Source: Candidatus Gastranaerophilales bacterium (GTDB lineage Bacteria; Cyanobacteriota; Vampirovibrionia; Gastranaerophilales; Gastranaerophilaceae). From it: a stretch of DNA of 64,000 nt. Below, one piece after another: positions 2,949-55,316 of the stretch (position 1 is the first letter of the stretch; every line of letters begins with the position of its first letter). The stretch is from the NCBI GenBank assembly GCA_944323995.1, contig CALUUN010000003.1, positions 1 to 64,000 on the forward strand. Direction: 5' to 3'. The translations under genes and the position numbers were made by a program. The notes beneath the pieces were generated by a model. It searched no databases, was not told the DNA's origin, and saw only the letters and a list, made by a program, of their open reading frames with translations.

Positions 2949-3989
2949 ATGAAAAAAAATAACGGTTTTACACTTGCGGAGGTATTAATCACTCTTGCAA
3001 TAATCGGCATAGTCGCAGCACTGACAATCCCGACACTTGTGCAAAATTATCAAGAGCGTGCATGGAACACTGCATCACAGGTATTCCAGAGAAAACTCGG
3101 CGAAGCATTAAGAGTAATGAATGTTCAGGGAACCTTAGCAGGTTATACAACAACGGAAGCATTTGTTGATGAACTTTCTAAACATATTAAGATAACAAGA
3201 ATATGTGATAACGATGATATCACAACATGCTTTGCGGATACCGTAACCTGGGGTGATGAAGAAGTTGACATGTCTAAAGTTAAAAAAGCTAAAAACTTCG
3301 GACAAAATGATTGGGATACAAACACAGTAGCAGTACAGTTTGCTAATGGTGTAAACGGAATAATAGCATACAATCCAAATTGCAGACAGAACCAATTCAG
3401 TAATGATGTAATAACGGTAGGCGAAAACGGCATAGGAACAACCTGTCTTGCAATACTATATGATGTAGACGGATTTAAGAATCCTAATACCAAAGATAAA
3501 GATTTAAAGAATCTAAACGTAACAAGTTTAGGCGGCAGTAACTGTGCAATAGAACTAAGTGACGGCACATGTTTCACCGCACCGTTTTATCCGACAGCAG
3601 TAACAAAAGCAGAATGCGAGCAATTAGTAGCAGAGGGTTATCCGATAAAAGAGTGTTATTACGAAAGTGACTACTGGGCAGGCGCAGTAAAAGCATGCCA
3701 TGATATGGGTTCAAGTTTACCGAGTCAGGAACAGTTAGACCAATTAGCAAGAGATTTGTACCCGGGCACAGAAATAACAACCGGAGTAAGCTACGGCACA
3801 AGAGATAACGACCTTGCATTCGAGATGGGCTTTCTAAGCTCTGCATCGACCTCAGCGTTTTGGCTGTGGTCGAGTGAGGAGACCAACAAGTACAACGCGT
3901 ACGGCCGCAGCTTCAGCTCCACGAACACGGGCCGGTACGGCTACGGCCACTACGGCAGCGACGGTCAGGCGGTGTGCTTAGCGGAATAG
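2949..3989 (+). CDS. pilin-like protein with DGR-type variable lectin domain (copy 1)
   Basis: The 346-residue protein starts with a class III (prepilin) signal, MKKNNG^FTLAEVLITL, then a hydrophobic helix AIIGIVAALTIPTL, as in type IV pilins and type II secretion pseudopilins. The middle (about 25-220) is nearly identical to copies at 33318 and 54228. The C-terminal part (about 235-346) has AVKACHDMGSSLPSQEQLDQLA and FWLWSSEE followed by a terminal AVCLAE. This resembles the C-type-lectin/FGE fold used by DGR target proteins. Codons from 3882 to 3968 are GC-rich with third base C and vary between copies. An AGAGGA ribosome site precedes the ATG. Surface display and ligand binding are inferred. 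Confidence 0.85.
   Translation: MKKNNGFTLAEVLITLAIIGIVAALTIPTLVQNYQERAWNTASQVFQRKLGEALRVMNVQGTLAGYTTTEAFVDELSKHIKITRICDNDDITTCFADTVTWGDEEVDMSKVKKAKNFGQNDWDTNTVAVQFANGVNGIIAYNPNCRQNQFSNDVITVGENGIGTTCLAILYDVDGFKNPNTKDKDLKNLNVTSLGGSNCAIELSDGTCFTAPFYPTAVTKAECEQLVAEGYPIKECYYESDYWAGAVKACHDMGSSLPSQEQLDQLARDLYPGTEITTGVSYGTRDNDLAFEMGFLSSASTSAFWLWSSEETNKYNAYGRSFSSTNTGRYGYGHYGSDGQAVCLAE
3882..3968 (+). other. DGR-type variable region 1
   Basis: These are 29 codons at the extreme 3' end of pilin copy 1, after GAGTGAGGAG and before GCGGTGTGCTTAGCGGAA. Aligned with the other two copies, differences fall at codon positions 1 and 2 while the third base stays C (G at two sites). Invariant codons (AAG, CGC, TTC, TCC, ACG, GGC) are interspersed. 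The pattern fits a template rich in AAC codons mutagenised at adenines. Confidence 0.85.
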
Positions 3990-4599
3990 AACGGTTGTTG
4001 TCAAGGCGCAGCATGCTGCGCCTCGCACTAAACGGCAACGCTCACACCAACAACGAAAACTCAATGTTTACGTTGTTGGTGTTCGTCTGTCGCTGCGCTC
4101 CTGCCTCTGCTCGGCTTGCTTAGGTGATTAAATTTGTATATTTTTCTAATATAGTTAATGGGCGGTATTTGTGACATTCCACAAGTGCCGCTTTTTAACA
4201 ATAGAACAGCCTCTCCCCTTGTGGAAGAGGCAAGTTCGCCGTAAAATTTGTCATGCTGAACTTGTTTCAGCATCTTGCAACAGTTATGGAATTGTAGGTC
4301 GGATTTACTGACCCGACAACGCCTCACCGGAGTTTTAACCTATGGAAACCCGCTATATCAGGGTTAAAGCCCCTCACCCCGGCCCCTCAAGGTGGGAGGG
4401 GATTTTAGGCATGTCATTGCAACAACTATGCGATTACTACGTCGCTTTGCGCTTATCGGATAATGACAAAACTGTGTTGCCGTGCCTCAGGTACCGTTAT
4501 GACATATTATCGTGCGGAGCAAATCAAAGACACGACGTAACGTCTTAACGTCTTTAAATTTGCTCTGCTCCTATTGACTCTTGTGTTATAATATAAGTA
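3990..4599. repeat. intergenic repeat cluster after pilin copy 1
   Basis: No convincing gene lies here. In order there are: a perfect 20-bp palindrome (4004-4023, AGGCGCAGCATGCTGCGCCT); an inverted repeat with 12-bp arms ACACCAACAACG (4044-4055 and 4071-4082); a terminator-like hairpin (4160-4196); a ~180-bp dispersed repeat (4242-4420) with hairpins TGCTGAA/TTCAGCA and GTCGG/CCGAC; and a GCGATTACTACG/TAATGACA repeat (4430-4505). Parts of the same set follow pilin copy 2 (34415-34755) and recur at 50222-50690. Short ORFs here are by-products of the repeats. Confidence 0.8.
4160..4196 (+). terminator. terminator after pilin copy 1
   Basis: Arms GCGGTATTTGTG and CACAAGTGCCGC (two G:U pairs) are followed by TTTTT. 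The same hairpin with compensating changes occurs after pilin copy 2 at 34415. Confidence 0.65.
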
Positions 4600-6258
4600 A
4601 TGAACGACAAACTTAAAGAAAGTTTAAAACTTCTTCCGTCATTACCCGGATGTTATATTTATTACAACAAGGATAATGAGATAATTTATGTCGGAAAAGC
4701 AAAAATCCTGAAACGCCGCGTAAAAAGCTATTTCAACAAAAAACACGACAGCGTAAAGGTTCAGGTGCTCGTTTCGCAAATCGACCGGCTTGAATATATC
4801 ATAACAAATACCGAGGTCGAAGCCCTTATCTTAGAAAGTCATCTGATAAAAAAACACAAACCCCGCTACAATATTCTTTTAAAAGACGACAAAAAATATC
4901 CCTATTTCTTAATCACGGATGAAGATTTTCCCCGCATATCAATCGTCCGCAAAAAAAATCTTAACCCCGAAAAAGGCCGCTATTACGGCCCCTATACAGA
5001 CATTCGCGCAATGCATTCAACACTTGACTTTTTGAAAAAAATATTCCCCCTGAAACAGTGCAAAACCCCTAAATTCAAAGACCGCCCCTGCCTTTATTAC
5101 CAGATAGGACGCTGTCTTGCGCCATGCCAGAACAAAGTCACAAGCGAAGAATACAAAGCGGTTGTTCATCAGGCTGAACTCTTCCTGTCAGGCAAACAGT
5201 CCGAATTGATGAAACAGTTAATGGAACAAATTCAAAAATACTCAAACAGCCTTCAGTTTGAAAAAGCCGCCAGACTCCGCGACAGCTACCTCGATTTGAA
5301 AAAAACTCTCGAAAAACAAAAAGTAGTCTACGAAAATACAAAACTTAACGAAGATATAATCTCGCTTGCCGCAGACGACGGAATTTTCGCAATTGTAATC
5401 CTTATGGTTCGCGAAGGCAGATTGATTGATAAAAAAGATTTTGTCTATGATGTTGAAGAAGAAGACCGCACGGAATTTTTCGCAACATTTTTCAAAGAAT
5501 ACTACTCAACCCTTACCCTCGGCTACCCTGACAAAATAGTTTCCAACGAACTTGAAGCCGTGGGCGACAAGGCGCTCTATGAAGAATGGCTGGAAATCCT
5601 TGCACGCAAAAAAATTAAAATCAGTTACGGAAAAACCGCTCAAGGCAAAGAACTCCAAATGCTTGCCGACAAAAACGCCGGTGTGGTTTTGCAAAACGCC
5701 AAAATAACCAAAATGGCCAAAATCCGTGATGATTTTAACGAAATCGGAGCCTATCTCGCCGAAAAATTAAATCTCAAAAACTTCCCCCACCGTATGGAAT
5801 GTTACGATATTTCGCATATTCAAGGCACAAACACGGTCGCCTCAATGGTAACTTTTATCAACGGTGTCAAGAAAAAATCCGAATACAGAAAATTTAAAAT
5901 CAATTCCACCGAAGGCAAACCCGATGACTTTTTATCAATGAAAGAAGTTCTGACCAGAAGGCTTACACATCTGGGAGAAGAAAAATGGGAAAAACCCGAC
6001 CTGATTATCATTGACGGCGGCAAAGGCCAGCTGTCAAGCGTTATGCAAATTATAAAAGAACTCGGCATAACCGGAATTGATGTTGTCAGTCTGGCCAAGC
6101 GCAACGAAGAAGTTTTCCTCCCCGGCAAATCAAAACCCGTAATCCTGCCGAGAAATTCAGGCGCCCTGTTCCTGTTTCAACGTATAAGAGATGAAGCCCA
6201 CAGGTTCGCAATTACATATCACAGAAAACTCCGCGCAAAATCAATGAAAAATCAGTAA
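4600..6258 (+). CDS. uvrC: UvrABC excinuclease subunit C, lacking the C-terminal HhH domain
   Basis: UvrC makes both incisions in nucleotide excision repair. The GIY-YIG domain is at residues 10-95 (GCYIYYNKDNEIIYVGKA), the Cys-rich segment at about 160-175, UvrB-interacting UVR motif at about 205-235, and the RNase H-like nuclease at about 380-540 (CYDISHIQGTN, IIIDGGKGQL). The protein stops at RDEAHRFAITYHRKLRAKSMKNQ without the paired helix-hairpin-helix motifs that normally follow (552 residues against about 600). TATAAT at 4587-4592, preceded by TGN, ends seven bases before the ATG with no Shine-Dalgarno, suggesting a leaderless mRNA. Confidence 0.95.
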   Translation: MNDKLKESLKLLPSLPGCYIYYNKDNEIIYVGKAKILKRRVKSYFNKKHDSVKVQVLVSQIDRLEYIITNTEVEALILESHLIKKHKPRYNILLKDDKKYPYFLITDEDFPRISIVRKKNLNPEKGRYYGPYTDIRAMHSTLDFLKKIFPLKQCKTPKFKDRPCLYYQIGRCLAPCQNKVTSEEYKAVVHQAELFLSGKQSELMKQLMEQIQKYSNSLQFEKAARLRDSYLDLKKTLEKQKVVYENTKLNEDIISLAADDGIFAIVILMVREGRLIDKKDFVYDVEEEDRTEFFATFFKEYYSTLTLGYPDKIVSNELEAVGDKALYEEWLEILARKKIKISYGKTAQGKELQMLADKNAGVVLQNAKITKMAKIRDDFNEIGAYLAEKLNLKNFPHRMECYDISHIQGTNTVASMVTFINGVKKKSEYRKFKINSTEGKPDDFLSMKEVLTRRLTHLGEEKWEKPDLIIIDGGKGQLSSVMQIIKELGITGIDVVSLAKRNEEVFLPGKSKPVILPRNSGALFLFQRIRDEAHRFAITYHRKLRAKSMKNQ

Positions 6259-6272
6259 ATTATTATCCGTAA

Positions 6273-6611
6273 TTATTCGGCCGCCTGAGCTTTACCGATT
6301 TGTCTTTCGGCACGTCTATAGGCCTCTCTTAGTTCATCCCTGTGCGACCCTCTCTCCATCCAGCGGTAAACATATCGTTCATCAGGGCCCAGTCCGCCGC
6401 TTAGCTTTTCTCCCGTCATAAGGCTGAATGAGGCTTCTGACATGCCAATAGTAATTATTATCTGCGGGATTTTTGTGGTACGCGGATCGGATACGGTTAT
6501 TTTCAAATTATTATAACGATAGTTCTTCATATCGTTAGCGTTGTGTGCGTCCCGATTTTCCGTGATAAACTCTTTTAAAGAATTTGATAATTCGTTTAAT
6601 GTTCTTCCCAT
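6273..6611 (-). CDS. hypothetical protein at the end of the MotAB-like operon
   Basis: This 112-residue soluble protein is not recognised. It has an Asn/Asp-rich N-terminal helix, a central segment that looks like beta strands (NLKITVSDPRTTKIPQIIITIG) and a charged C-terminal helix ERGSHRDELREAYRRAERQ. It starts eight bases after the UPF0210 gene and on the same strand, so it is probably the last gene of a four-gene operon. No function can be assigned. Confidence 0.65.
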   Translation of the reverse strand: MGRTLNELSNSLKEFITENRDAHNANDMKNYRYNNLKITVSDPRTTKIPQIIITIGMSEASFSLMTGEKLSGGLGPDERYVYRWMERGSHRDELREAYRRAERQIGKAQAAE

Positions 6612-6619
6612 AATTTTCC

Positions 6620-7981
6620 CTAATTATTCAAGCTGTGTACGGGAGCGGGGATTCTTCCGCCGCGGCAGACAAATTTTTCCGACGAGAGAGTATTGACCGG
6701 CATAACCGGTGCCTCGCCCAGAAGTCCTCCGTAAACAACTTTATCACCGACTTTTTTTCCGGCTACCGGTATAATCCTTACGGCAGTCGTTTTTTTATTA
6801 ATCATGCCTATTGCCATTTCATCCGCAATAATCCCTGCAATTGTCGATACAGGCGTATCTCCGGGAATTGCTATCATATCAAGCCCGACCGAACATACAC
6901 ATGTCATGGCTTCCAGTTTATCAAATGTCAAATAACCTTTTGCAGCGGCTTCAATCATGCCTGCATCTTCCGACACAGGTATAAATGCACCCGACAATCC
7001 GCCTACATGCGAACTTGCCATTATTCCGCCTTTTTTAACCGCATCGTTAAGCATTGCAAGAGCAGCCGTTGTTCCGTGCGCACCGGCATGTTCAAGCCCC
7101 ATTGCCTGAAAAATTCCCGCAACACTGTCACCTTCGGCAGGTGTCGGAGCAAGCGACAAGTCTATTACGCCGAAAGGAACTTCAAGTCTTTGAGCAAGTT
7201 TCCGGCCGATAAGTTCGCCCGTTGAGGTGATTTTGTATGCTATTTGTTTAATTTTGTTGGCAAGTTCACTCATGTCCGAATTTTCCGGCATGGCTTCAAT
7301 CGCGGCTCTGACAACTCCGGGGCCGGAAACTCCGACATTCAAAGCGCATTCGGGTTCACCCATTCCGCAATATGCACCTGCCATAAACGGGTTATCGCTT
7401 GCGGAATTACAAAAACAAACAAGTTTTGCCGCGCCTATCCCGTCTTTGTCTTTTGTAAGCTCGGCCGCCTTTTTAACCGTTTCCGCCATTTTTAAAACAG
7501 CATCCATATTTATGCCCGCCTTTGACGAGGCAAGGTTTATTGAAGAACAAAGTCTTTCGGTAACCGAAAGCGCCTCCGGTATTGCCTCAATCAAAAGTCT
7601 GTCGCCTTTTGTAAAACCCTTTTCCACAAGTGCGGAAAATCCCCCGACAAAATTCACACCGACCTGCTGTGCCGCTCTGTCAAGAGTTTTGGCTATCTTT
7701 ACGTAATCGGGATTTTTGCAGGATTCACCGACAAACGAAACCGGCGTAACCGCAATTCTTTTATTGATAATCGGAATTGAATATTCGTTTTCAAGGTCGT
7801 TTGCATATTCAACAAGATTTTTTGCGTATTTTACGATTTTGTTATAAATTTTTTCGCAGACAACGTCAATATCTTCCGCCGCACAATCCCGCAGGCTTAT
7901 CGCAAGCGTAACCGTTCTGATATCAAGGTTATGCAGCTTTATCATATTGATTGTTTCAAGTATAAGATTTTTGTTTATCAT
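6620..7981 (-). CDS. PFL/UPF0210 (DUF711) family protein
   Basis: This 453-residue protein matches the UPF0210/DUF711 family, whose fold is related to glycyl-radical enzymes but whose reaction is unknown. Typical stretches are [14 protein letters not shown] near the N-terminus, [16 protein letters not shown], and [20 protein letters not shown] in the centre. In many bacteria this gene sits beside an ACT-domain protein (UPF0237). Here such a protein is encoded 6 kb away at 14088. It begins three bases after the MotB-like gene and is cotranscribed with it. Confidence 0.88.
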
Positions 7982-7984
7982 ATC

Positions 7985-8671
7985 CTAAAATCCCAGAGCC
8001 TGCATAATATCCCAGCGTTTAACCGTAAGTTTCAGCTCAACGCGGCGGCTTTTTGCAAAATCTTCTTTTCCGTTTGCGTCAAGAATAGGTTCGTTGAAAC
8101 TCTTACCCTCAACCACAACTTTGTTTCGCAATTGCTCGCTGTAATTTTTGTTGTAATTCGTTTTGAACATGTATTCCGCAACCGAATTTGCACGTTTTAA
8201 ACTTAATTCCATATTCTTTGTAAACTGTTCTTCTCTGGTTTTTAACCCCGAGAACGACTGCGAGTCCGTGTGTCCCTGAACAACTATGTTATTAATACCT
8301 TCAAGAAGTTCTTCTTTTGAAAATATGGTATCAACATAAATCGGAATAAGTTTATCCAGATACTGTTTGCCTTTCGGAGAAAGCGTCCAGCTGTTCAGTT
8401 CAAAAAGTTCAAGATCCGAAATTTTTATATCGCCTGTCATTTTATCAACTTCGGCTTTGATATTTTCTTTTTCCAGTTTTTCAATCAACTCTTCGGAAGC
8501 CTTTATCTGCTCTTGTTTTTGCTGTACGGAATTCTGTGAAAAACCTGTCATGGCAAGAACGAACAAGGTCATGAAGATAATCGCCAAACCTAACAAAAGG
8601 TCGGCCATCGTCGTCCAGAATATGTTATCGCTGCCTTCCGGCGCTTTTGCTTTTTTCCCGAGAATTGCCAT
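7985..8671 (-). CDS. MotB/OmpA-like protein of an ion-driven motor pair
   Basis: The 228-residue protein has a short cytoplasmic N-terminus, one membrane helix at about 22-43 (MADLLLGLAIIFMTLFVLAM) with Asp24 in the position of the MotB proton-binding aspartate, a coiled-coil linker (50-80), and an OmpA-like peptidoglycan-binding domain at about 95-220 (VVQGHTDSQSF, LSLKRANSVAEYM, SRRVELKL). With the MotA-like protein immediately upstream it probably forms a proton-powered stator complex. There are no flagellar genes nearby, and none of the effector genes of the Zorya defence system. Confidence 0.85.
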   Translation of the reverse strand: MAILGKKAKAPEGSDNIFWTTMADLLLGLAIIFMTLFVLAMTGFSQNSVQQKQEQIKASEELIEKLEKENIKAEVDKMTGDIKISDLELFELNSWTLSPKGKQYLDKLIPIYVDTIFSKEELLEGINNIVVQGHTDSQSFSGLKTREEQFTKNMELSLKRANSVAEYMFKTNYNKNYSEQLRNKVVVEGKSFNEPILDANGKEDFAKSRRVELKLTVKRWDIMQALGF

Positions 8672-8681
8672 TTGTCACCCT

Positions 8682-9590
8682 TTAAAATAAATCATCAACC
8701 GCATCGGCTCCGCCGCTTGCTTTTGCATTTTCTTTCAATTGTTTGTTCATCTGGTTTATACCGAAAATAAGGTTTTCCAGATACGGAACAAGGTTGCTTG
8801 CAATACCTGTGTTCAAAGCTGTTTTGAAATGGTTAGGCATTGCAACAATAAGATTTGATACTGAATTGTTTTGAATTTTTGTTTCTCTCAAAAGTTCAAA
8901 CAGGAATTTTTCCGAAGATATATTATCAAACAAATGCGCAATTGTGTCTTGAACCTGTCCTAACGGTTTTGCGCACATCTGTCCGTAGAGAATTTTTTCA
9001 ATAATAAGGAATATAAGTGAAGAACCTACCGCGATAACTGATACAAGAGCCGCAATCTGCATGCTGCTCATCAAGCCCGCAACTGATGCGATTGTTCTTT
9101 CCTGAGTTGAAAAGTCGATTTTACCGAACGCTATTGCGATGTTTAAGAATGTAAACAAAGGCCCGAAACCTGTAAGGATTGTCGGTATTGTTTGTAACAA
9201 TTTGTAATTGAATTTTGTAGTCAATAAAGATTCTTCATTAAAGAAATACAGCGGGTCAACCGTTGTCTGGATGTTTTGAACGGTGGAAGATACTTCCTGA
9301 TAAGTTAAATCATCGTCTTCGCTTTTGAGCGCAACCGATTCCGAAAAGATGAGTGTATTTTTAAACTCAAGCCAAGCACTTGAAACATAAGGGTTTGCGC
9401 ACATCCACTCATCAATCTCTTTGAATCTGAAATTCAAATCGCTCTTTTTAAAATTAACCAGAAAAGCCTGAAAAATCTTAAGGTTTTTATTTACGTATCT
9501 GTATTTTGTTATACAGAAAATTGTTGACGAAATGAATGTCATTATAACGATTAGAATAGGGGGATCGGTAAAAATATGTGTTAAATTCAT
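8682..9590 (-). CDS. MotA/TolQ/ExbB-type channel protein
   Basis: This 302-residue inner-membrane protein has one TM near residues 10-27, then a conserved pair at about 130-150 and 165-200 (TILTGFGPLFTFLNIAIAF, then AGLMSSMQIAALVSVIAVG). That is the arrangement of MotA/TolQ and of ZorA. It lacks the long coiled-coil tail of ZorA. It is the first gene of the operon with the MotB-like, UPF0210 and 112-residue proteins, with gaps of 10, 3 and 8 bases. An AGGAG site precedes the start. Confidence 0.83.
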   Translation of the reverse strand: MNLTHIFTDPPILIVIMTFISSTIFCITKYRYVNKNLKIFQAFLVNFKKSDLNFRFKEIDEWMCANPYVSSAWLEFKNTLIFSESVALKSEDDDLTYQEVSSTVQNIQTTVDPLYFFNEESLLTTKFNYKLLQTIPTILTGFGPLFTFLNIAIAFGKIDFSTQERTIASVAGLMSSMQIAALVSVIAVGSSLIFLIIEKILYGQMCAKPLGQVQDTIAHLFDNISSEKFLFELLRETKIQNNSVSNLIVAMPNHFKTALNTGIASNLVPYLENLIFGINQMNKQLKENAKASGGADAVDDLF

Positions 9591-9740
9591 AAAATATTTT
9601 CTCCTTTATCAGGATTATAGCACATGAACTTTGATGTGGCAAATAAAAAATTAGCATATATTACTATGACGGCTTATACCTTTCGGGGATTATTTCAAGA
9701 GCAAATGCATTTACAATTCAAATATAACAGGAGAAGTATT

Positions 9741-10040
9741 ATGCTAACGGAAAACAGTTGCGGTAAATATAACCGTCTGGAAATGAAAAATGTTGATAAA
9801 AATATTATCGGCTGGCTGGAAGATATTATAGAAGAAAACAACAGCCGGATAGAACGAAAAGAATGGAAAAGTAAATATAACAGCTATGTTGTGTACGATT
9901 ATGAACCGTTTTGCACGGATGGATTTGAAATAAATATTGTTATCACATCATACGATGCAGCTTATTTAAATTTTATTAAGTATTTATATGACGAAAAAAT
10001 AAACACGATAGAATATTTAAACAGCTGCATAAATGTGTAA
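9741..10040 (+). CDS. hypothetical protein
   Basis: This 99-residue acidic protein is of unknown family. The open frame extends upstream to an ATG at 9624, but AGGAG at 9729-9733 lies seven bases before the ATG at 9741, which is the better start (MLTENSCGKYNRLEMKN). It contains WLEDIIEENNSRIERKEW and ends in a Tyr/Asn-rich segment. It stands alone between two minus-strand genes. Confidence 0.55.
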   Translation: MLTENSCGKYNRLEMKNVDKNIIGWLEDIIEENNSRIERKEWKSKYNSYVVYDYEPFCTDGFEINIVITSYDAAYLNFIKYLYDEKINTIEYLNSCINV

Positions 10041-10059
10041 AAAAGAGGGGTAAAGCCCC

Positions 10060-10335
10060 TCATTCCTGATTAAGTTTTGAAAAACAATCTTTGCAATAAA
10101 CTTCTTTACCCTCAATCGGCCTGAACGGAACCTGAGTTTGAGCTCCGCATTTTGAACAGACCGCATCATACATTTTTCTGTTTTTTCTGTTGAGCTGTCT
10201 GCGTTTTTTTCTGCATTCGGGACATCTTTTGGGTTTGTTAACGAGACCTTTTTCTGCATAGAATTCTTGTTCGCCCGCTGTGAAAATAAACTCTACGCCG
10301 CAATCTTCACAGACTAATTTTTCATCTTCGTACAT
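10060..10335 (-). CDS. zinc-ribbon protein with CxxC-x17-CxxC domain
   Basis: A 91-residue protein with four CxxC knuckles. The first half (CEDCGVEFIFTAGEQEFY, CPECRKKRR) matches the small zinc-ribbon domain often annotated as zf-trcl. The second half (CSKC, seventeen residues, CKDC) matches the CxxC-x17-CxxC domain. Both are probably zinc-binding; partners are unknown. The frame is open to 10389, but AGGAG lies just before the ATG at 10335, giving the start MYEDEKLVC. Confidence 0.82.
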   Translation of the reverse strand: MYEDEKLVCEDCGVEFIFTAGEQEFYAEKGLVNKPKRCPECRKKRRQLNRKNRKMYDAVCSKCGAQTQVPFRPIEGKEVYCKDCFSKLNQE

Positions 10336-10502
10336 GGTTTTTCTCCTGATTTGGTAAGGGAATCTAAATTCCTTCAATTGATTATACACTATGTTTGAGA
10401 ATTATGCAATAGGGTTTGAATATTTTCCGGTACGTTTTGCCGTACTTTTTGGCGGTCAAATTAAGTTTTTTCATGTTATAATTTCAAAAGGGAGAGAACT
10501 TT

Positions 10503-33317: not shown

Positions 33318-34379
33318 ATGGGTATAAAAGATTTTATTGCAAATGAAACAAAACAAAAAACAACAGCCTTCACGCTCGCAGAAGTGCTGATAACATTAGC
33401 AATTATAGGTATAGTCGCAGCACTGACTATACCGACATTAATTCAGAATTATCAAACAAAAGCATGGAACACTGCATCTCAAGTATTCCAGAGAAAACTC
33501 GGTGAAGCATTAAGGGTAATGAATGTTCAAGGAACTTTGGCAGGTTATACAACAACAGAAGCGTTTGTTGATGAACTTTCTAAACATATTAAGGTAACAA
33601 GAATATGTGATAATGATGATATCACAACATGCTTTTCTGATACCGTAACCTGGGGTGATGAAGAAGTTGACATGTCTAAAGTTAAAAAAGCTAAAAACTT
33701 CGGACAAAATGATTGGGATACAAATACGGTAGCAGTACAGTTTGCAAACGGTGTGAATGGAATAATAGCATACAATCCCGATTGCAAACAAAACCAATTC
33801 AGTAATGATGTAATCACAGTAGGCGAAACCGGAATAGGCACAAACTGTCTTGCAATACTGTATGATGTAGACGGATTCAAGAACCCTAATACCCAGCAAA
33901 AAGATTTACGAGGTTTAAATGTAATAAGTTTAGGAAGAAACTGTGCAATAGAACTAAGTGACGGCACATGTTTTACAGCACCGTTCTATCCAACACCATT
34001 AACGCTTGAAGAATGCGAAGCACAAAAAGGAGAACTAGGAATAAGTGAATGTTGCTACGATGGTGATCGTTGGGCAGGTGCAGTAAAAGCATGTCATGAT
34101 ATGGGATCAAGTTTACCTAGTCAGGAACAGTTAGACCAATTAGCGAGAGACTTGTATCCTGGCACAGAAATAACAACCGGAGAAAGCAACGGACAAAGAG
34201 CTAACGACCTTGCAGTATCAATGGGATTTATCTCCTCTCCCGATTCTACGTTTTGGCTGTGGTCGAGTGAGGAGTACGTCAAGGACTTCGCGTACCTCCG
34301 CGCCTTCTACTCCACGTACACGTACTGGAGCTACACCGGCCGCGGCAACGGCTCTCCGGCGGTGTGCTTAGCGGAATAG
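33318..34379 (+). CDS. pilin-like protein with DGR-type variable lectin domain (copy 2)
   Basis: The 353-residue paralogue of the pilin at 2949 has a longer leader before the prepilin site (GIKDFIANETKQKTTA, then FTLAEVLITLAIIGIVAAL). Here the residue before FTLAE is Ala rather than Gly, which may affect processing by prepilin peptidase. Residues 30-240 are almost identical to copy 1. The C-terminal domain reads AVKACHDMGSSLPSQEQLDQLA and FWLWSSEEYVKDFAYLRAF and ends AVCLAE. The variable region is 34275-34358. AGGAG precedes the ATG. Confidence 0.85.
   Translation: MGIKDFIANETKQKTTAFTLAEVLITLAIIGIVAALTIPTLIQNYQTKAWNTASQVFQRKLGEALRVMNVQGTLAGYTTTEAFVDELSKHIKVTRICDNDDITTCFSDTVTWGDEEVDMSKVKKAKNFGQNDWDTNTVAVQFANGVNGIIAYNPDCKQNQFSNDVITVGETGIGTNCLAILYDVDGFKNPNTQQKDLRGLNVISLGRNCAIELSDGTCFTAPFYPTPLTLEECEAQKGELGISECCYDGDRWAGAVKACHDMGSSLPSQEQLDQLARDLYPGTEITTGESNGQRANDLAVSMGFISSPDSTFWLWSSEEYVKDFAYLRAFYSTYTYWSYTGRGNGSPAVCLAE
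34275..34358 (+). other. DGR-type variable region 2
   Basis: These 28 codons align with regions 1 and 3; one codon is missing near the 3' end (TCT CCG in place of GAC GGT CAG). Up to that point differences lie at codon positions 1 and 2 only. Flanks GAGTGAGGAG and GCGGTGTGCTTAGCGGAA equal those of copy 1. Confidence 0.85.
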
Positions 34380-45970: not shown

Positions 45971-45982
45971 AGGGAAAAAACA

Positions 45983-46168
45983 ATGGAAAAAATCACAATC
46001 CGTTCTGACAGAGACACAGATTACAAATTTCAGTACAAAGGCGAAGACGTTGTACTGGGCGCAGGAAAAATTTTGAGTATTGCTGACGGTTTAAACCACG
46101 TTGTTTTGCCGACCTGCGCTATGAAAATTATGAACAACCTTATCGTAATTAAAGACGACGTAAAATAA
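45983..46168 (+). CDS. hypothetical small protein
   Basis: A 61-residue protein of unknown family, predicted as short beta strands (KITIRSDRDTDYKFQYKGED, VVLGAGKILSI), thirteen bases after the nucleotidyltransferase-like gene. AAAGGGAAAAAAC precedes the ATG. Probably the third gene of the hisS operon. Confidence 0.6.
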   Translation: MEKITIRSDRDTDYKFQYKGEDVVLGAGKILSIADGLNHVVLPTCAMKIMNNLIVIKDDVK

Positions 46169-46192
46169 AAAATATTCCGCCGGATTTTGTTT

Positions 46193-46993: not shown

Positions 46994-47022
46994 AGAATAA
47001 TTATAGCATATTTTTTGAAATT

Positions 47023-47048
47023 AAAAAAGCGGTTTTAAACCGCTTTTT
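47023..47048 (-). terminator. terminator of gloA
   Basis: AAAAAAGCGGTTT and AAACCGCTTTTT form a long stem with T tracts between gloA and trmB. Confidence 0.8.
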
Positions 47049-47430: not shown

Positions 47431-47441
47431 GTTTGTTCTCC

Positions 47442-48710
47442 TTACAGTAATATTTGTGTACCTAAGATTAATCTGTGGCTGTCCTCAAGGGTTTGGTTAT
47501 CACAATAGACATAGTTTAGCAAAATTCTCATTCCCTGACCGATTACAAAATAATTTATACCTGCAGAATATTCTCTGCGCAGGTCGCCCGACATATCTTT
47601 ATTCGGGTCGAACTGATCATATCTTGCAACAAGCTGTAATTTCGGGGTTAATTTATATCCTATTGTTGTATAAAACCCTTCCGCTCTGTCAGTGGTCAAA
47701 ACTCTTGCGTTGTAGCCGTCAGCGGTTGAATATTCCGCATTAATCATAAAATCTTTATAATTGTAACCGATATAGGCGCCTGCCACGGTGTAATTATTAT
47801 GTCTTTTGCCGGCATTTAAACCTCCGCCGACAACGAGTTTTCCGTATTTTCCGTCAGTCATGCCGAGAGGTTTAAAGTTTACCCAGCCGGTGAATTCGGC
47901 ACCCGGAAAAAATTCCTTAAAAAATCTGTCTGAACTGTTTGCAGCAAGGCTGTAGTCAACGAGTGAATAGTTTCCGATTACTCTTAAACCGAAAGCGCGG
48001 GTGTTTGCAAATGTTCTTGCGATTTGGGATCTTAAAACAAAGGGGACATAAGTTGTGCTCATACCGCCTTCGACACCGACCTGATTTCTTGAATTACCTA
48101 CCATAATCTGGTGGTGCGGGATAGCGTGGTTTACCAGATAAGCATCACTTATAAGATTTTGAAAAAATGATACTTCGTTTGTCGGAGTCAATTTAAACTG
48201 AAGTTTAAAGTCGGTTTTGTATTCGGGGTTAAACTGACCCATCATACCGACGTCAATAGATGTAATATCATATTCGGTAGAATAATCGGTATCAAAATTA
48301 AACGACATATTTCCGCGGTATTTTCCGTAAAACTGGATTCTGTCAATCGGGCCTTTTTCTATATCCCAGGTAAGGATATCTTTTAAAAGATAATTGCTGT
48401 AATCGGTACGGGTAACCTGTGCTTTCAGCGCTTTATTAATTTTGTGTGCAAGCGAGCCTTCTTCTCTGAAAATCGGATCTCCCAGATGTTCAAACATAAA
48501 AAAGTTTTCTTCACTTGTATCAATCAGCAAATCTTTATCGTCAATAACACCGTCATTATTCAAATCTCTCAAAGGCAGTTCGGTATTTTCCGGAAGGAGA
48601 ATTTCCGGCTCGATAATATTTTTTTCAACAGATAAATCTGCAGCTGCAAACGCAGTCTGTGAGGTAAATATCAGCAATAAAAATAAACCAACTTTAAAAA
48701 GGGTGTTCAT
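47442..48710 (-). CDS. outer-membrane porin-like beta-barrel protein
   Basis: The 422-residue protein has a signal peptide (FKVGLFLLLIFTSQTAFA^AAD) and, from about residue 115, alternating amphipathic strands ending in LILGTQILL, the aromatic/hydrophobic C-terminus of barrels. It resembles phosphate-selective porin O/P. Between the two lies a calcium-type loop DLNNDGVIDDKDLLI (about 49-63), as in dockerin/EF-hand units. The tail end reads into gloA with an eleven-base gap. Confidence 0.8.
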   Translation of the reverse strand: MNTLFKVGLFLLLIFTSQTAFAAADLSVEKNIIEPEILLPENTELPLRDLNNDGVIDDKDLLIDTSEENFFMFEHLGDPIFREEGSLAHKINKALKAQVTRTDYSNYLLKDILTWDIEKGPIDRIQFYGKYRGNMSFNFDTDYSTEYDITSIDVGMMGQFNPEYKTDFKLQFKLTPTNEVSFFQNLISDAYLVNHAIPHHQIMVGNSRNQVGVEGGMSTTYVPFVLRSQIARTFANTRAFGLRVIGNYSLVDYSLAANSSDRFFKEFFPGAEFTGWVNFKPLGMTDGKYGKLVVGGGLNAGKRHNNYTVAGAYIGYNYKDFMINAEYSTADGYNARVLTTDRAEGFYTTIGYKLTPKLQLVARYDQFDPNKDMSGDLRREYSAGINYFVIGQGMRILLNYVYCDNQTLEDSHRLILGTQILL

Positions 48711-48772
48711 AAATATTAATTATATCACAAAAATGTTGCAATTCATAATATTTTTATAGTATAAATATTGTT

Positions 48773-50197
48773 ATGACATCTGTAACAAAAAATGATAAAT
48801 ATACAAAAACCCGTGCCCCGATTGTAGAAGCATTAAAAAAGGCTTATGAAAATCCGACCTATCAGTTTCATATACCCGGACATACAAAAGGTTCGGGCGC
48901 GCTGCCTGAATTTAAACAGCTTATCGGAAGGAAGGCGCTTGCGGTTGATACAACCGACGAATTTGATAACCTCGGAACACTTCACCCTGCAACGGGCCCG
49001 ATAAAAGAAGCACAGGAACTTGCGGCAAAAGCCTTCGGTGCCAAAAAAACTTTCTTTCTGCTGAACGGTTCAACAGCCGGAAACCTTGCGCTTGCAATGG
49101 GATTAACCAAAAAAGGCCAAAAGATTTTGACAAACCGAAACTGTCACCGTTCAATTTTGACAGGCATGATAATTTCGGGAGCGGAACCCTTATGGCTTGT
49201 TCCGGAAAGGTTTGAGGACTGGGGAATCTGGGGTAATGTCAGCCCGGAACGTGTTGAAGAAATGCTGAAAATGCACGGTGATATTTCAATGGTGTGGATT
49301 ACAAACCCGACCTATGAAGGTGTTGTATCAGATATCAAATCAATTTCGGCGATATGCAAACGTTATAATGTTCCGTTAATAGTGGATGAAGCGCACGCTT
49401 GCCTTTGGAATTTTAACGACCATCTTCCGACATCTGCCCTGAAACTCGGCGCGGATGCGGTTGTGCATTCACTTCACAAAACAGGCGGCAGCATGAGCCA
49501 GAGTTCAATGCTTCATATTGCCGAAAATTCAATGATAGATGTTGATGCGGTTGAAAAAGCCTTAAAACTTCTCCACACAACAAGTCCTTCGTTAATGCTT
49601 CTTGCAAGCCTTGATGCAGCACGGGCAAACCTTGAAAGTCCAAGGGGCAGAAAACAGCTTCAACGCGCTATTTCCAACGCCAAATACTTAAGAAGCGAAA
49701 TTGACAAACTTGAACACATACATCAGTTAAAACCTGATTTCGGATACAAAACAGATGTAACAAAGGTGTTTATAAAAGCGGACGGCCTGTCGGGCAAACG
49801 TCTTGAATCCATTTTGGAAATAGATTTTAATATAGAAGTCGAAAGTGCGTCAGACGCGGGGCTTTTACTTTTGTCAAACATCGGCAACAAACGTTCTGAC
49901 ATGCAGTATCTTGTTGAATGTCTTAAAAAGATAGATACCGCGAACTATTCGGATATCTGCTATCTTGAAAACAAAAAACACATGCCGATGCTTACCCCGA
50001 TAATCAAAATGAGCCTGAGGGACGCATATTATTCTCCAAAAGAAACAATTCCCAAATCGCAGGCAATCGGCAGAATTTCTGCGGAAGTGATTGCGGAATG
50101 TCCTCCGGGGATTGCGGTATTGCTTCCGGGAGAATTGATTACCGAAGACCACCTGCCGTATCTTACCGATTACGAGTTTATTGAGGTTATTAAATAA
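48773..50197 (+). CDS. Orn/Lys/Arg-type PLP decarboxylase
   Basis: This 474-residue fold-type I decarboxylase matches the short bacterial Orn/Lys/Arg decarboxylases. It has the start FHIPGHTKGSGALPEF, DTTDEFDNLGTLHPATGPI, IVDEAHAC (Asp205) and the PLP lysine K236 in VHSLHKTGGSMSQSS. The C-terminal ECPPGIAVLLPGELI is typical. Arginine or lysine is the likely substrate; with speE at 55674 arginine is favoured. TATAAA lies seven bases before the ATG. Confidence 0.88.
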   Translation: MTSVTKNDKYTKTRAPIVEALKKAYENPTYQFHIPGHTKGSGALPEFKQLIGRKALAVDTTDEFDNLGTLHPATGPIKEAQELAAKAFGAKKTFFLLNGSTAGNLALAMGLTKKGQKILTNRNCHRSILTGMIISGAEPLWLVPERFEDWGIWGNVSPERVEEMLKMHGDISMVWITNPTYEGVVSDIKSISAICKRYNVPLIVDEAHACLWNFNDHLPTSALKLGADAVVHSLHKTGGSMSQSSMLHIAENSMIDVDAVEKALKLLHTTSPSLMLLASLDAARANLESPRGRKQLQRAISNAKYLRSEIDKLEHIHQLKPDFGYKTDVTKVFIKADGLSGKRLESILEIDFNIEVESASDAGLLLLSNIGNKRSDMQYLVECLKKIDTANYSDICYLENKKHMPMLTPIIKMSLRDAYYSPKETIPKSQAIGRISAEVIAECPPGIAVLLPGELITEDHLPYLTDYEFIEVIK

Positions 50198-50734
50198 GTT
50201 TTTTAAAGTTGTTAAGACACTAAAATTTGTCATGCTGAACTTGTTTCAGCATCTTGCAGCCGTTATAGAATTGTAGGTCGGATTTACTAATCCGACAACC
50301 CTTACAGGAATTTTTAACCTGTGGAAACCCGCGATATCATAGTTAAAGCCCCCCACCCCAGCCCTCCCCCTCAAGGGTGGGAGGGAGTTTCAGGCATATC
50401 ATTATTTGTCCTGCTGAACTTGTTTCAGCATCTTGCAACAGTTATGGAATTGTAGGTCGGATTTACTAATTCGACAACCCTTCACCGGAGTTTTAAACCT
50501 ATGAAAACCCGCGATATCATAGTTAAAGCCCCCCACCCCAGCCCTCCCCCTCAAGGGTGGAGTGGATTTGAGGCATGTCATTGCTGCAATAATGCGATTA
50601 CTACGTCGAATGCTACGCATTCTCCTCGTAATGACAGACCAAAACTTAATGTGTTGCCGTGCCTCAGGCACCCTCGTAATCACAGACCAAAATTTTATAC
50701 CGCAAGAATATCTTTATATTATTGTTCAATCATT
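50198..50734. repeat. tandem pair of dispersed intergenic repeats
   Basis: No gene is supported. Two copies of the ~180-bp repeat seen at 4242 stand head to tail (50222-50403 and about 50404-50580; spacing about 179). Each has TGCTGAAcTTGtTTCAGCA, a GTCGGATT/AATCCGAC hairpin, and a C-rich block CCCCACCCCAGCCC followed by CCCTCAAGGGTGGG. A GCGATTACTACG/CGTAATGACA unit follows (50593-50637) and a partial copy after it. The cluster lies between convergent genes. Confidence 0.85.
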
Positions 50735-52111
50735 CTATTTGAATTTACGCATCATAGACATTGCTTTTGTCATGGCGTGTTTGCCCATTTTGCCCCCAAA
50801 GCCGCCAAACATTTTTTTCATATCATTCATGCCTTTCATCATCATCCGCATTTGTTCAAACTGTTTGATGTAAAGGTTAATGTTATGCATATCAATGCCG
50901 CAGCCATTAGAAATCCGTTTTTTCCGGCTGGTGTTTAAAAGTGCCGGATTAGCGCGTTCTTCCGGTGTCATGCTTTGAATAAAAACTTCTATTTTTTTGA
51001 ATTGTTTTTCGCCTTCGTGCGAAAGTTTTTCGCGGTCGTCCTTTGATATTTTCATGCCCGGAATCATTCCGAGAATCTGATCCATTGAACCCATCATTTT
51101 CATTTGTTTTTGCATTTTTAAAAAGTCATCAAAGGTAAATTCGGCTTTTGCCATTTTAGCTTCAAGCTCACGTGCCGATTTTTCGTCAAAAACTTCCTGC
51201 GCACGCTCAACCAGCGACACAATATCACCCATGCCGAGTATTCTTGTTGCCATACGTTCCGGATAAAAATCCTCAAGAGCGTTCAATTTTTCACCGGTAC
51301 CGGTAAGTTTTACGGGTTTTCCGGTGCAGTAAACAACACTGAGCGCAGAACCACCGCGGCTGTCACCGTCAAGTTTTGTCAAAACAAGTCCGGTCAAACC
51401 TATTTGCGCATCAAAGTTTTCCGCAACGTTCACTGCTTCCTGACCTGTCATTGCATCAATTACAAGAAGTTTTTCCTGCGGCGCAAACATCCTGTCAATT
51501 ATCAACAGTTCAGCCATCATGTCAGTATCTATCTGAAGCCGGCCCGCCGTATCAAGAATCAAAACATTGTACCCGTTTTCTTTTGCATAGTTAAGTGCGC
51601 TCTGCACAATGTTTTTAACATCTTTTGAACCGTCAAGCGTAAAAACTTCAACACCGATTTCAGCTCCGAGAGTCTTTAACTGTGAAATTGCAGCGGGTCT
51701 GTATACATCACATGCGACAAGAAGCGGGTTTTTGCCTTCTTTTTTAAGTTTTACGGCAAGTTTTGCGGAAGATGTTGTTTTACCCGAACCCTGCAAACCG
51801 AGCATCATAATCAATGACGGGTGTCCGCTTAAATCCAGAGGTTTTTGCTCTTTGCCGAGCAGGTTAATCAATTCGTCATGAACTATTTTAACAAGCTGCT
51901 GTGAAGGGTCTACGCCTTCCAGAACTTTTTCGCCTTCAGCTTTGTCTTTTATTGCGGAAATAAACGCCTTAACAACACGTAAATTAACGTCCGCTTCCAA
52001 AAGCGCGCGTCTGATTTCACGCAATGCCTCCTGCATGTTATCCTGTGTAAGTTCGGCTCCGCGGGTTTTGCTTATTATACTTTGTAATCTGTCGCTTAAA
52101 CTGTCAAACAT
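50735..52111 (-). CDS. ffh: signal recognition particle protein Ffh (SRP54)
   Basis: The 458-residue protein has the N domain, GTPase G domain (GLQGSGKTTSSAKLAVKLKK P-loop about 107-, DTAGRLQID, TKLDGDSRGG) and the Met-rich M domain (KMQKQMKMMGSMDQILGMIPGM to the MMRKFK end). It targets nascent membrane proteins to FtsY. TAGAAT precedes the ATG by nine bases. No SRP RNA gene was seen nearby. Confidence 0.96.
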   Translation of the reverse strand: MFDSLSDRLQSIISKTRGAELTQDNMQEALREIRRALLEADVNLRVVKAFISAIKDKAEGEKVLEGVDPSQQLVKIVHDELINLLGKEQKPLDLSGHPSLIMMLGLQGSGKTTSSAKLAVKLKKEGKNPLLVACDVYRPAAISQLKTLGAEIGVEVFTLDGSKDVKNIVQSALNYAKENGYNVLILDTAGRLQIDTDMMAELLIIDRMFAPQEKLLVIDAMTGQEAVNVAENFDAQIGLTGLVLTKLDGDSRGGSALSVVYCTGKPVKLTGTGEKLNALEDFYPERMATRILGMGDIVSLVERAQEVFDEKSARELEAKMAKAEFTFDDFLKMQKQMKMMGSMDQILGMIPGMKISKDDREKLSHEGEKQFKKIEVFIQSMTPEERANPALLNTSRKKRISNGCGIDMHNINLYIKQFEQMRMMMKGMNDMKKMFGGFGGKMGKHAMTKAMSMMRKFK

Positions 52112-52135
52112 CTTATTAAAATTCTATCATAAAAA

Positions 52136-52603
52136 TTAAATATCTGCGGTGCAGTTAGGACATTTTGTTGCACGGATATCTATTGTGCTGAAACATTTCG
52201 GACACGATTTTGTGGTGGCAGTTTCTTCTTTCTTGGTTTCGGCACGGAGTTTGTTAATAGCTTTTACAAGTAAAAATACCGCAAACGCAACTATTACAAA
52301 ACTTATCAACGTGTTTATGAAAAGTCCGTAATTTATTGTTACCGCACCCGCTTTCTGTGCTGCTTCCAAGGAAGGATATGATATGATTTTTCCGTGGTAA
52401 TCCGGCAGTGTTAAATAAAGATTTGAAAAATCCACCCTGCCCATAATCCAACCCAAAGGCGGCATGATAATATCTTTGACAAGTGAATCTATTATCTTGC
52501 CAAAAGCAGCTCCGATTACAATACCGACAGCCATGTCAATGACATTGCCCTTCATCGCAAATGTCTTAAACTCGCCTAAATTCTTTTTTAATCTCTCTAT
52601 CAT
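52136..52603 (-). CDS. mscL: large-conductance mechanosensitive channel with zinc-ribbon tail
   Basis: The 155-residue MscL releases solutes on hypo-osmotic shock. TM1 region [26 protein letters not shown] and TM2 region [31 protein letters not shown] (read in segments) are intact. The tail has [18 protein letters not shown], two CxxC pairs, a zinc-ribbon extension found in some MscL proteins. AAAGGAGAA precedes the ATG. Confidence 0.93.
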
Positions 52604-52636
52604 TTTTTTCTCCTTTTTTTATTATATGCACAAACA

Positions 52637-52670
52637 ATAAAAAAAAGCTATGTACTGAGGTGCATAGCTG
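52637..52670 (-). terminator. hairpin upstream of mscL
   Basis: AGCTATG and CATAGCT with a ten-base interior, followed on the minus strand by TTTTTTTTATTG. It lies upstream of mscL, so it would end a transcript entering from the right or act in the mscL leader. No gene is seen that would need it on the minus strand. Confidence 0.5.
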
Positions 52671-52839
52671 TTGATTAGGGATATGTGTATCTTAGTCTCT
52701 AAGGAGTATGGTTTTATATTAGCAAAGGATTCCAAAATAAAAATCATTCGTTTTATTGATGTTTTATAAATTTTGATGAAAAATTTTTAGACTTATTATA
52801 AACATCACTTTATGATATAATAATTAAAGAGGCAGGAAT

Positions 52840-53586
52840 ATGTATAAGAATTGTTTTGAACAAAACGATGAGCTGAAAAAACAGATAGATGGATTTCGTC
52901 CGCTTCCGCAGGATATTTTGACCCAGCTTAAAGAATATTATAAAATAGGCCTTACGTATTCATCAAATGCTATTGAAGGCAACACGCTGGATTTGGCGGA
53001 AACCAAGGTAGTTATTGAAGACGGCCTGACAATAAGCGGAAAACCTTTGAAATACCACCTTGAAGCTCTCGGACATGCAAATGCCTTTGATGAACTTATT
53101 AATCTGGCAAAACAAGATTTTTTTACCGAAAACGACATTAAAAACCTGCACCACCTGTTTTACTCAAAGATAAATGAACAAAACGCCGGCAAATATCGGA
53201 ATACACAGGTCATAATAACGGGTTCGGATGTTGAATTTCCGGCTCCTGCTGAACTTGACGGCAAAATGCGTGAATTTGTATCAAAACTCCCGCAACTGAA
53301 AAAAACTTTGCATCCTGTTGAATATGCTGCGACGGTTCATGCAATTTTTGTTAATATTCATCCGTTTATAGACGGAAACGGCAGAGTCGCAAGACTTTTA
53401 ATGAATCTTGCTCTTTTGCAGTCAGGATATAATATAGTGATAATTCCGCCGGCTGTAAGAAGTGACTACATAAGAGCTTTGCAGGAAACTAACAGGCAGA
53501 ATTTTGAACCGTTCGTAAATTTTATTTCGGAAATGACGCTGGAATCTCAAAAAGAATACTTGAAAATTATAAAACGGTTTGCATAA
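52840..53586 (+). CDS. Fic-domain protein with inhibitory helix
   Basis: The 248-residue protein has the catalytic Fic loop HPFIDGNGRVARL (His174) expected to transfer AMP from ATP to a target hydroxyl. The N-terminal inhibitory motif SSNAIEGN (Glu46) marks it as a self-inhibited class II Fic protein. No antitoxin partner precedes it. GAGGCAGGA is upstream of the ATG. Targets are unknown. Confidence 0.9.
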   Translation: MYKNCFEQNDELKKQIDGFRPLPQDILTQLKEYYKIGLTYSSNAIEGNTLDLAETKVVIEDGLTISGKPLKYHLEALGHANAFDELINLAKQDFFTENDIKNLHHLFYSKINEQNAGKYRNTQVIITGSDVEFPAPAELDGKMREFVSKLPQLKKTLHPVEYAATVHAIFVNIHPFIDGNGRVARLLMNLALLQSGYNIVIIPPAVRSDYIRALQETNRQNFEPFVNFISEMTLESQKEYLKIIKRFA

Positions 53587-53638
53587 AGAATTTCAACTGC
53601 TTGAACAAATAAATTTCGGTGCTACAATAAAGTCACAC

Positions 53639-53710
53639 AGCGGTATCGTCTAGTGGTCAGGACGGGAGATTCTCATTCTCCAAACAGGGGTTCAATTCCC
53701 CTTACCGCCG
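53639..53710 (+). tRNA. tRNA-Glu (anticodon UUC)
   Basis: Cloverleaf: acceptor nGCGGTA/TACCGCC, D-arm GTCTAGTGGTCAGGAC, anticodon arm GGAGATTCTCATTCTCC with UUC, T-arm AGGGGTTCAATTCCCCT, discriminator G. No encoded CCA. Position 1 is A opposite C72, a mismatch where G:C is usual; all other pairs hold. Confidence 0.93.
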
Positions 53711-53768
53711 GTTTTAAACAGCCGGACAGGTGATGTAAAAATTTGAAGAAATCTAATAAAATATTTTT

Positions 53769-54158
53769 ATGAAAGATTCCTTCTGGTATTATTCGTTGAA
53801 CAAATCGCCCCTGACCCCGCCTGCGTGGGTTTTTCCTGTTATATGGACAGTAATCTACGTATTGATTGCGTTATCGTTCTTTTTTTATGTAAGGGATGGA
53901 TTTTCGCGTGACAAAATTCCGGCGGTTATAATCTTTTTTATCCAGCTTCTGTTGAATTTTTGCTGGTCGCCGGTTTATTTCGGGCTGCATAATGTTGAAC
54001 TTGCGTTTTGGATTATAATTTTATTGATAATTTTTGTATTGATAAATATTATTCTCTTTTATAAAAAATCAAGAGCCGCCGCGTATTTGATGATACCGTA
54101 TTTTTTGTGGATAATTTTTGCGGCGTATTTGAATTTTGAAATTGTTATGCTGAATTAG
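53769..54158 (+). CDS. tspO: TspO/MBR-family membrane protein
   Basis: The 129-residue protein has five TM segments and TspO signatures: WYYSLNKSPLTPPAWVFPVIWTVIY, then LLLNFCWSPVYFGLHNVELAF, and YFLWIIFAAYLNFEIVMLN at the end. TspO proteins bind porphyrins or similar ligands in stress responses. It stands alone, after tRNA-Glu. Confidence 0.93.
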   Translation: MKDSFWYYSLNKSPLTPPAWVFPVIWTVIYVLIALSFFFYVRDGFSRDKIPAVIIFFIQLLLNFCWSPVYFGLHNVELAFWIIILLIIFVLINIILFYKKSRAAAYLMIPYFLWIIFAAYLNFEIVMLN

Positions 54159-54227
54159 GCGGCGCATCAGCCGGCGCGTTCTGCAGCTGCAAAACCGCCC
54201 ACTCTTCCCGGCCTTGCGGCATTCATG

Positions 54228-55316
54228 CTATTCCGCCAAGCACACCGCCTGACCGGTGCTGTTGGTGCGGCCGTTGGTGCTCCGGCTCGTGCGCGTGGAG
54301 CCGAAGTAGCGGGTGAACGAGCTGGTCTTGATGTCCTCCTCACTGGACCAAACCCAAAACTCCGAGCTGGGAGAAGTGATGAACTTCCATTCCATTGCAA
54401 GATCGTTATCTCTGCTGCCACCTGTACTGTTTTCGTATAATGTCGAACTGATTGTTGCTCCGGGATACAAGTCTCTCGCTAATTGGTCTAACTGTTCATG
54501 ACTCGGTAATGATGATCCCATATCATGGCATGCTTTTACTGCACCTGCCCAGTAGTCATCTGTATAGATTGATGGCAAGCAATATTGAATATTGTGCTCA
54601 CTCATAAATGCTAAGTCATCAGGGTCACTTGTTGTTCCGTTTGTATCACAACCGTTCCAGACATGTGCTGTTGGATAGAATGGTGCTGTAAAGCATGTGC
54701 CGTCTGATAGTTCTATTGCACAATTAAGGGAGCCAGCTAGTTTGTTAACATTCAAATTATTAATATCTTTATCAGCTGCATTCGGATTCTTAAATCCGTC
54801 TACGTCATACAGCATTGCAAGACAATCAGTACTTATACCGGTTTCGCCTACTGTTATTACATCATTACTGAACTGGTTTTGCCTGCAATCCGGATTGTAT
54901 GCTATTACGCCGTTTACACCGTTTGCAAACTGTACCGCTACCGTATTTGTATCCCAATCATCTTTACCGAAGTTTTTGGATGTCTTGATTTTAGACATCT
55001 CTACTTCTTCTCCGTCCCATGTAACTTTATCCGCAAAGCATGTTGTAATATCATCGTTTTCACATATTCTTGTTATCTTAATATGTTTAGAAAGTTCATC
55101 AACAAACGCTTCCGTTGTTGTATAGCCTGCTAAGGTTCCTTGAACATTCATAACCCTTAATGCTTCACCGAGTTTTCTCTGAAATACCTGTGATGCAGTG
55201 TTCCATGCTCTTTCTTGGTAATTTTGCACAAGTGTCGGGATAGTCAATGCCGCAACTATTCCGATAATCGCAAGAGTTATCAGCACTTCCGCTAAGGTAA
55301 AACCAATCTTTTTCAT
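54228..55316 (-). CDS. pilin-like protein with DGR-type variable lectin domain (copy 3)
   Basis: The 362-residue paralogue of the pilins at 2949 and 33318 has the prepilin start MKKIG^FTLAEVLITL and the same conserved middle. A longer insertion at about 222-255 (HVWNGCDTNGTTSDPDD) precedes DYWAGAVKACHDMGSSLPSHEQLDQLA. It ends with FWVWSSEEDIKTSSFTRYF and AVCLAE. Variable region 54249-54335. AAGGAGAAAG precedes the ATG. The 20 bases after its stop (GCCGCAAGGC, GGGAAGA) resemble those after copy 2. Confidence 0.85.
   Translation of the reverse strand: MKKIGFTLAEVLITLAIIGIVAALTIPTLVQNYQERAWNTASQVFQRKLGEALRVMNVQGTLAGYTTTEAFVDELSKHIKITRICENDDITTCFADKVTWDGEEVEMSKIKTSKNFGKDDWDTNTVAVQFANGVNGVIAYNPDCRQNQFSNDVITVGETGISTDCLAMLYDVDGFKNPNAADKDINNLNVNKLAGSLNCAIELSDGTCFTAPFYPTAHVWNGCDTNGTTSDPDDLAFMSEHNIQYCLPSIYTDDYWAGAVKACHDMGSSLPSHEQLDQLARDLYPGATISSTLYENSTGGSRDNDLAMEWKFITSPSSEFWVWSSEEDIKTSSFTRYFGSTRTSRSTNGRTNSTGQAVCLAE
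54249..54335 (-). other. DGR-type variable region 3
   Basis: These 29 codons align without gaps to region 1. Twenty codons vary among the three copies, nearly all differing at positions 1 and 2 with the third base fixed. The upstream flank AGTGAGGAG and downstream GGTCAGGCGGTGTGCTTGG match copy 1 except for one synonymous base. Confidence 0.85.

Follow-up and report, generated by a model that had tools for sequence, protein, structure and literature searches.

Type IV pilin-like genes dispersed through a Gastranaerophilales genome as probable remote targets of two diversity-generating retroelements

The three type IV pilin-like genes encoded in the window, that is, the 64-kb stretch analysed here (contig 3, bases 1-64000; GC 0.386), carry variable regions that are almost certainly in-trans targets of a diversity-generating retroelement (DGR) located on another contig, which would rewrite them by mutagenic retrohoming. 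They belong to a set of at least 33 variable regions served by two retroelements, a scale that an earlier reading made from the sequence alone had underestimated in reporting three regions and one retroelement. The host is a Candidatus Gastranaerophilales bacterium, and the nearest named matches of its reverse transcriptases (RTs) likewise come from Candidatus Gastranaerophilales genomes. Its genome spans 1.75 Mb in 35 contigs, with a completeness estimate of 99.9%. As many contig breaks in this draft assembly lie inside pilin genes, the target count is a minimum, and the joining of some genes may be incorrect.

The pilin open reading frames and their variable regions lie where the sequence-only reading had placed them. 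The first gene (2949..3989, forward strand) encodes 346 aa, with an N_methyl match (PF07963, E 3e-08) and a TIGR02532 prepilin domain, the second (33318..34379, forward strand) encodes 353 aa (N_methyl E 3.4e-05) and the third (54228..55316, reverse strand) 362 aa (N_methyl E 2.6e-05), both of the latter matches being above the cut-off. A tRNA-Glu (CTC) gene is found about 500 bases from the third pilin gene, at 53638-53711. Variable regions 1 (3882..3968, forward strand) and 3 (54249..54335, reverse strand) consist of 29 codons each, whereas region 2 (34275..34358, forward strand) has 28, i.e. the template length minus one codon; the lengths given previously are thus to be corrected in that the second region is one codon shorter. 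Differences among the three regions affect 21 codons, close to the 20 or so first estimated. Over the first 26 codons the variable columns comprise 17 first positions, 16 second positions and not a single third position, exactly as had been claimed, while pairwise differences in the upstream parts of the same genes number 34/28/87, 48/37/118 and 54/45/119 at positions 1/2/3. Similarly, the variable regions have a GC3 of 0.96-0.97 and the upstream parts one of 0.27-0.35, which agrees with the view that the third base is nearly always C in a genome otherwise preferring A/T.

No DGR part could be recognised within the 64-kb window, and the sequence-only reading had concluded that the retroelement must lie elsewhere. 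Two complete DGR cores are indeed present outside the window, and their anatomy could be observed directly. The core on contig 19 (locus L033) contains, in order, a pilin gene (2675-3967), an Avd gene (4298-4669), the template TR1 (approximately 4876-5000) and an RT gene (5195-6391), TR1 therefore being placed between Avd and RT. The second set, on contig 8 (L034), is made up of an RT gene (6504-7619) and, on the other strand, an Avd gene (7596-7976) adjoined by the template TR2 (approximately 8050-8190). That is, the genome search for a DGR RT and an AAC-bearing template, set beforehand as a refutation test, found both, together with an Avd, on contig 19. The template has AAC at the variable codons and AAG, CGC, TTC, TCC and ACG at the conserved ones, five of the six codons that had been picked out as conserved from the window alone. 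Both RTs match Pfam RVT_1 (E 2.1e-18 and 3.4e-15) and contain the DGR motif IGNLTSQ and an intact YVDD. Both Avd proteins score above the Pfam cut-off for PF22296 (bAvd); their matches to NF033474 (DivGenRetAVD), with E 1e-19 for the contig 19 protein and 5e-13 for the other, fall below the curated cut-off of 80 bits. All four proteins are encoded by open reading frames. In a tree, the two RTs fall into different groups of Gastranaerophilales-type RTs, and the possibility that the contig 8 set is a recent copy of the contig 19 set was therefore rejected. No close phage origin was found, the RT relatives on viral contigs being no more than about 50% identical over long matches. A third, weak Avd-like four-helix-bundle gene occurs in G000 (C12:13826-14104), on a contig without an RT match.

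When aligned to TR1, region 1 is changed at 20 of 39 adenines and 3 of 48 other bases, region 2 at 22 of 37 and 2 of 47, and region 3 at 18 of 39 and 3 of 48 (Fisher p = 4e-6, 2e-8 and 2e-5, respectively), so that the proposal of adenine-directed mutagenesis of AAC template codons holds for each of them. On the strength of these alignments, we would assign all three genes with very high confidence to the TR1 retroelement as remote targets. The window regions also share constant flanks with TR1. In the first gene, the 5′ flank GTGGTCGAGTGAGGAG (3866..3881, forward strand) and the 3′ flank GCGGTGTGCTTAG (3969..3981, forward strand) are common to TR1, with identity ending at TTAG, just after which template and variable region diverge; GCGGTGTGCTTAG may well be the homing site (IMH). 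The flanks described earlier need one correction: the third region has CAGTGAGGAG, not GAGTGAGGAG, on its 5′ side. Directly past the stop codon of the first gene, an inverted-repeat scan of the 3′ flanks of variable regions revealed a perfect palindrome, AGGCGCAGCATGCTGCGCCT (4003..4022, forward strand), a candidate for either a hairpin aiding homing or a terminator. Inverted repeats, which could be terminators, follow 10 of 10 TR2 regions and some TR1 regions. Among them, GCCTCTCCCCTTGTGGGAGAGGC lies 3′ of several TR2 targets (e.g. L024, L025 and L028), others having different stems in a similar place, and could act as a terminator or a homing hairpin or simply represent a dispersed repeat.

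The whole genome was searched with the 5′ flank pattern GTGGTCNNGTNAGGA, allowing one mismatch, which returned 35 sites against one for the reversed control pattern. The 35 sites correspond to the two templates and 33 mutually distinct variable regions, distributed over 15 contigs, and every one of the 33 sits at the 3′ end of a pilin-family gene. Since the genome is a draft, this number stands for at least 33 targets; the 15-base flank lies outside the core, so that selection by flank was not biased towards adenine changes in the core. Template alignment allots 23 regions to TR1 (two of them weakly) and 10 to TR2 (one weakly), and this descent of the regions from the templates is a direct observation. 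A third template was considered for the group with the TTGGTCCAGTGAGGA flank and rejected as unnecessary, because the cores of this group fit TR1. About 20 further pilin paralogues in the genome have tails of low GC3 without any trace of a template.

Adenine specificity extends across both sets. Changes affect 44% of A, 5% of C, 10% of G and 6% of T in the TR1 regions (about 7% of non-adenines overall), and 49% of A against approximately 3% of each other base in the TR2 regions. Masking adenines, an analysis done without the three weak regions, left a residual mismatch of 5.9% for TR1 and 2.1% for TR2, compared with 17-26% when another base was masked. Five regions (L012, L025, L026, L029 and L075) each show 16-21 adenine changes and no other change, as expected if they had been recently overwritten. 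In TR1 AAC codons the first adenine has most often become T, making TAC, and hence Tyr, the commonest replacement, whereas Gly and Tyr lead in the TR2 regions; the leading outcomes for AAC were Tyr, Ser and Asp, with Tyr at the top, when the BPP-1 enzyme was used in E. coli (PMC12875486). Selection also shapes the replacement counts. Lone adenines in both cores (CAC, CAG, GAC, GAG) show changes in 0-11% of cases, whereas adenines in AAC do so in roughly 50-80%, indicating either that selection protects these codons or that the enzyme is context dependent. Indels occur in some variable regions, and a TAG in one.

The proportion of non-adenine changes in the TR1 regions, about 7%, is higher than the 2.58% averaged over TR-VR pairs (PMC6642488), and part of the excess falls on two positions where the template may itself have changed. 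Within the TR1 core (L033, approximately 4899-4905), the T that opens the first variable codon is matched by another base in 52% of the regions, and a nearby G in 35%. The template of G003, a species of the same genus, reads AAC AAT at the matching sites. This suggests that TR1 has probably lost adenines at these two sites, which the older variable regions would still show.

The N-termini of the window pilins carry the prepilin N-methylation motif, PF07963 being above the Pfam cut-off in all three, and a TIGR02532 prepilin match as well as PDB matches to the N-termini of geopilin and PilA were obtained. From its sequence, this part is predicted to be a type IV prepilin N-terminus with a class III leader and a hydrophobic N-terminal helix. 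For the C-terminal part of the three window pilins, no named domain was obtained from Pfam. A model of this domain built from six sequences was of moderate quality (mean pLDDT 61), with the C-terminal domains of Bdellovibrio Bd2740 (8oks) and Legionella Lcl (8q4e) as best PDB matches (probability 0.90-0.99, sequence identity 12-15%), and related cassette pilins match Lcl_C weakly. The earlier description of the domain as lectin-like agrees with these best matches, but with E values of only 0.04-0.1 a Lcl/C-type-lectin-like fold is reasonable, not proven.

Among 16 sampled genomes of the genus, the host's included, pilin homologues occur in all 16 and a DGR RT in five, DGR genes being absent from the other 11. 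G003 possesses its own Avd, RT and a different template, which its eight regions follow (A altered in 47% of cases, as opposed to 7% for C, 14% for G and 7% for T). Variable regions of G000 match their own template at 5-7 of seven distinguishing positions and the other template at 0-2, so that the following of the own template is likewise seen directly. G006 has nine equally long regions with a common constant scaffold, different from the others, and with variation mainly at columns where the known templates have adenine (0.38-0.41 vs 0.06-0.08). Its template was not found beside its RT, which has one stop, outside the aligned core; upstream of the RT (L181, C65:1-579) there is an ORF that looks GIY-YIG-like by eye, without Avd or template, which means that the cassette has been rearranged. 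In other relatives (L090, L094 and L095) a single pilin gene adjoins Avd and RT, which suggests that a one-target cassette may have come first and dispersed targets later. Several pilins of G011, G013 and G002 (L211-L222 and L228-L230) keep high-GC3 tails resembling variable regions; neither a DGR RT nor an Avd was found in these three genomes, which suggests recent loss of the retroelement. In G015 (C22:20597-21711), the coding sequence of a DGR RT of the second type is divided between two frames, as would be expected from decay.

Retrohoming in trans offers the best explanation of the adenine specificity, of the two DGR cores and of the way in which regions follow their own template. An error-prone RT, together with Avd, would copy TR1 RNA and misincorporate bases opposite template adenines, and the cDNA would then replace the matching 3′ end of a pilin gene. 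As the variable codons of the template are nearly all AAC, the outcomes would be NNC codons, allowing 15 amino acids and no stops within a constant scaffold. One template, TR1, could serve 23 pilin genes in this way, while the second DGR, of a separate RT lineage and with its own TR2, would serve 10 more genes of the same family. Without any retroelement, ordinary gene conversion between pilin paralogues together with diversifying selection, of the kind by which silent cassettes generate antigenic variation, might draw on the large paralogue family, in which members devoid of a template-derived region are possible donors. We regard it as extremely improbable and rejected it, as we did ordinary selection, on the codon-position and adenine statistics: third positions are unchanged over 26 codons against 87-119 third-position differences upstream, the changes follow the adenines of two templates located beside RT and Avd, and the variable regions, being all different, are not shuffled copies of a few donors.

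Whether retrohoming in trans still operates is a separate matter. That the retroelements, though active in the past, no longer function, the variable regions being relics kept by selection, would fit the drift at non-adenines in some regions (18/74 in L039 and 16/74 in L021), the absence of DGR genes from most sampled genomes of the genus, with variable-region-like tails retained in G011, G013 and G002, and the split RT of G015. It is unlikely here, given that the reading frames of all four RT and Avd genes are open and their motifs intact, and that several regions depart from the template at 16-21 positions, all of them adenines. Retrohoming probably still takes place, and the pilins would be assembled and may bind a variety of ligands. 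A diversified lectin-like domain on a type IV pilin-like stalk would likely yield a repertoire of pilus-borne binding surfaces. It is somewhat more probable than not that two independent DGR lineages split one dispersed pilin family, in which at least 33 genes are continually re-randomised while undiversified paralogues persist, to form a population-level library of pilus-binding variants. Alternatively, the diversified pilins could serve mainly to escape pilus-binding phages or host immunity, for which a large repertoire and the surface position predicted from the prepilin motif would be suitable; this appears rather doubtful, because the variable codons lie in a Lcl/C-type-lectin-like scaffold, the fold in which DGRs usually create binding diversity.

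A DGR typically has a single target gene or a handful of them. The present case is remarkable for its scale, in that one family of type IV pilins is shared between two DGR lineages. In a genome of 1.75 Mb, two DGRs are dedicated to surface pilins of a single family, their template-target pairing is directly readable, and so small a genome would thereby gain a vast set of surface-binding proteins. The system joins DGRs and type IV pilins in a gut lineage that is related to cyanobacteria and has received little study. It also offers a natural experiment in the sharing of one template among many targets and in template evolution, and suggests why pilin genes have expanded in this genus. Our literature searches returned no report of DGRs in Melainabacteria or Gastranaerophilales, and none joining DGRs with type IV pilins there. 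The 33 targets exceed the largest adenine-directed counts in the mainly open-access papers compared here (18 and 15), and no record is claimed.

Like the BPP-1-type DGR of a Bordetella phage, the present cassettes combine an (I/V/L)GxxxSQ RT motif, an Avd just before the template, an AAC-rich template and adenine-specific changes at the 3′ end of the target; unlike it, they reside in a cellular host, target pilins rather than a tail protein, and have templates serving 23 or 10 scattered genes. Dispersed remote paralogous targets and up to two DGRs per genome are also known from cyanobacteria such as Trichodesmium erythraeum and Nostoc (PMC7517822, PMC8867640). Trichodesmium has two DGRs with adenine-directed variation and 18 TR/VR loci, against 33 here (PMC8867640), and 121 diversified genes were counted in 21 cyanobacterial genomes combined (PMC7517822); many of these cyanobacterial targets have kinase or sensor domains and are predicted to be cytosolic, whereas all targets here are type IV pilin-like. 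In one survey, 91 TR-VR pairs are reported for a Pseudomonas genome, with few adenine changes (PMC6642488). Thiohalocapsa PB-PSB1 similarly combines several RT lineages in one genome with diversification in trans, but in nine loci with 15 targets in conflict systems rather than in two cassettes directed at a single pilin family (PMC10907252). Bacteroides DGRs, likewise in a gut bacterium, reportedly also target a pilus protein, diversifying the tip pilins of type V pili (cited in PMC12632263); those pili are lipoprotein-derived, whereas the present targets are N-methylated, type IV pilin-like and number dozens in trans. Finally, the C-terminal domains of Legionella Lcl and Bdellovibrio Bd2740, the solved folds closest to the predicted domain, would have their counterpart here fused to a pilin stalk.
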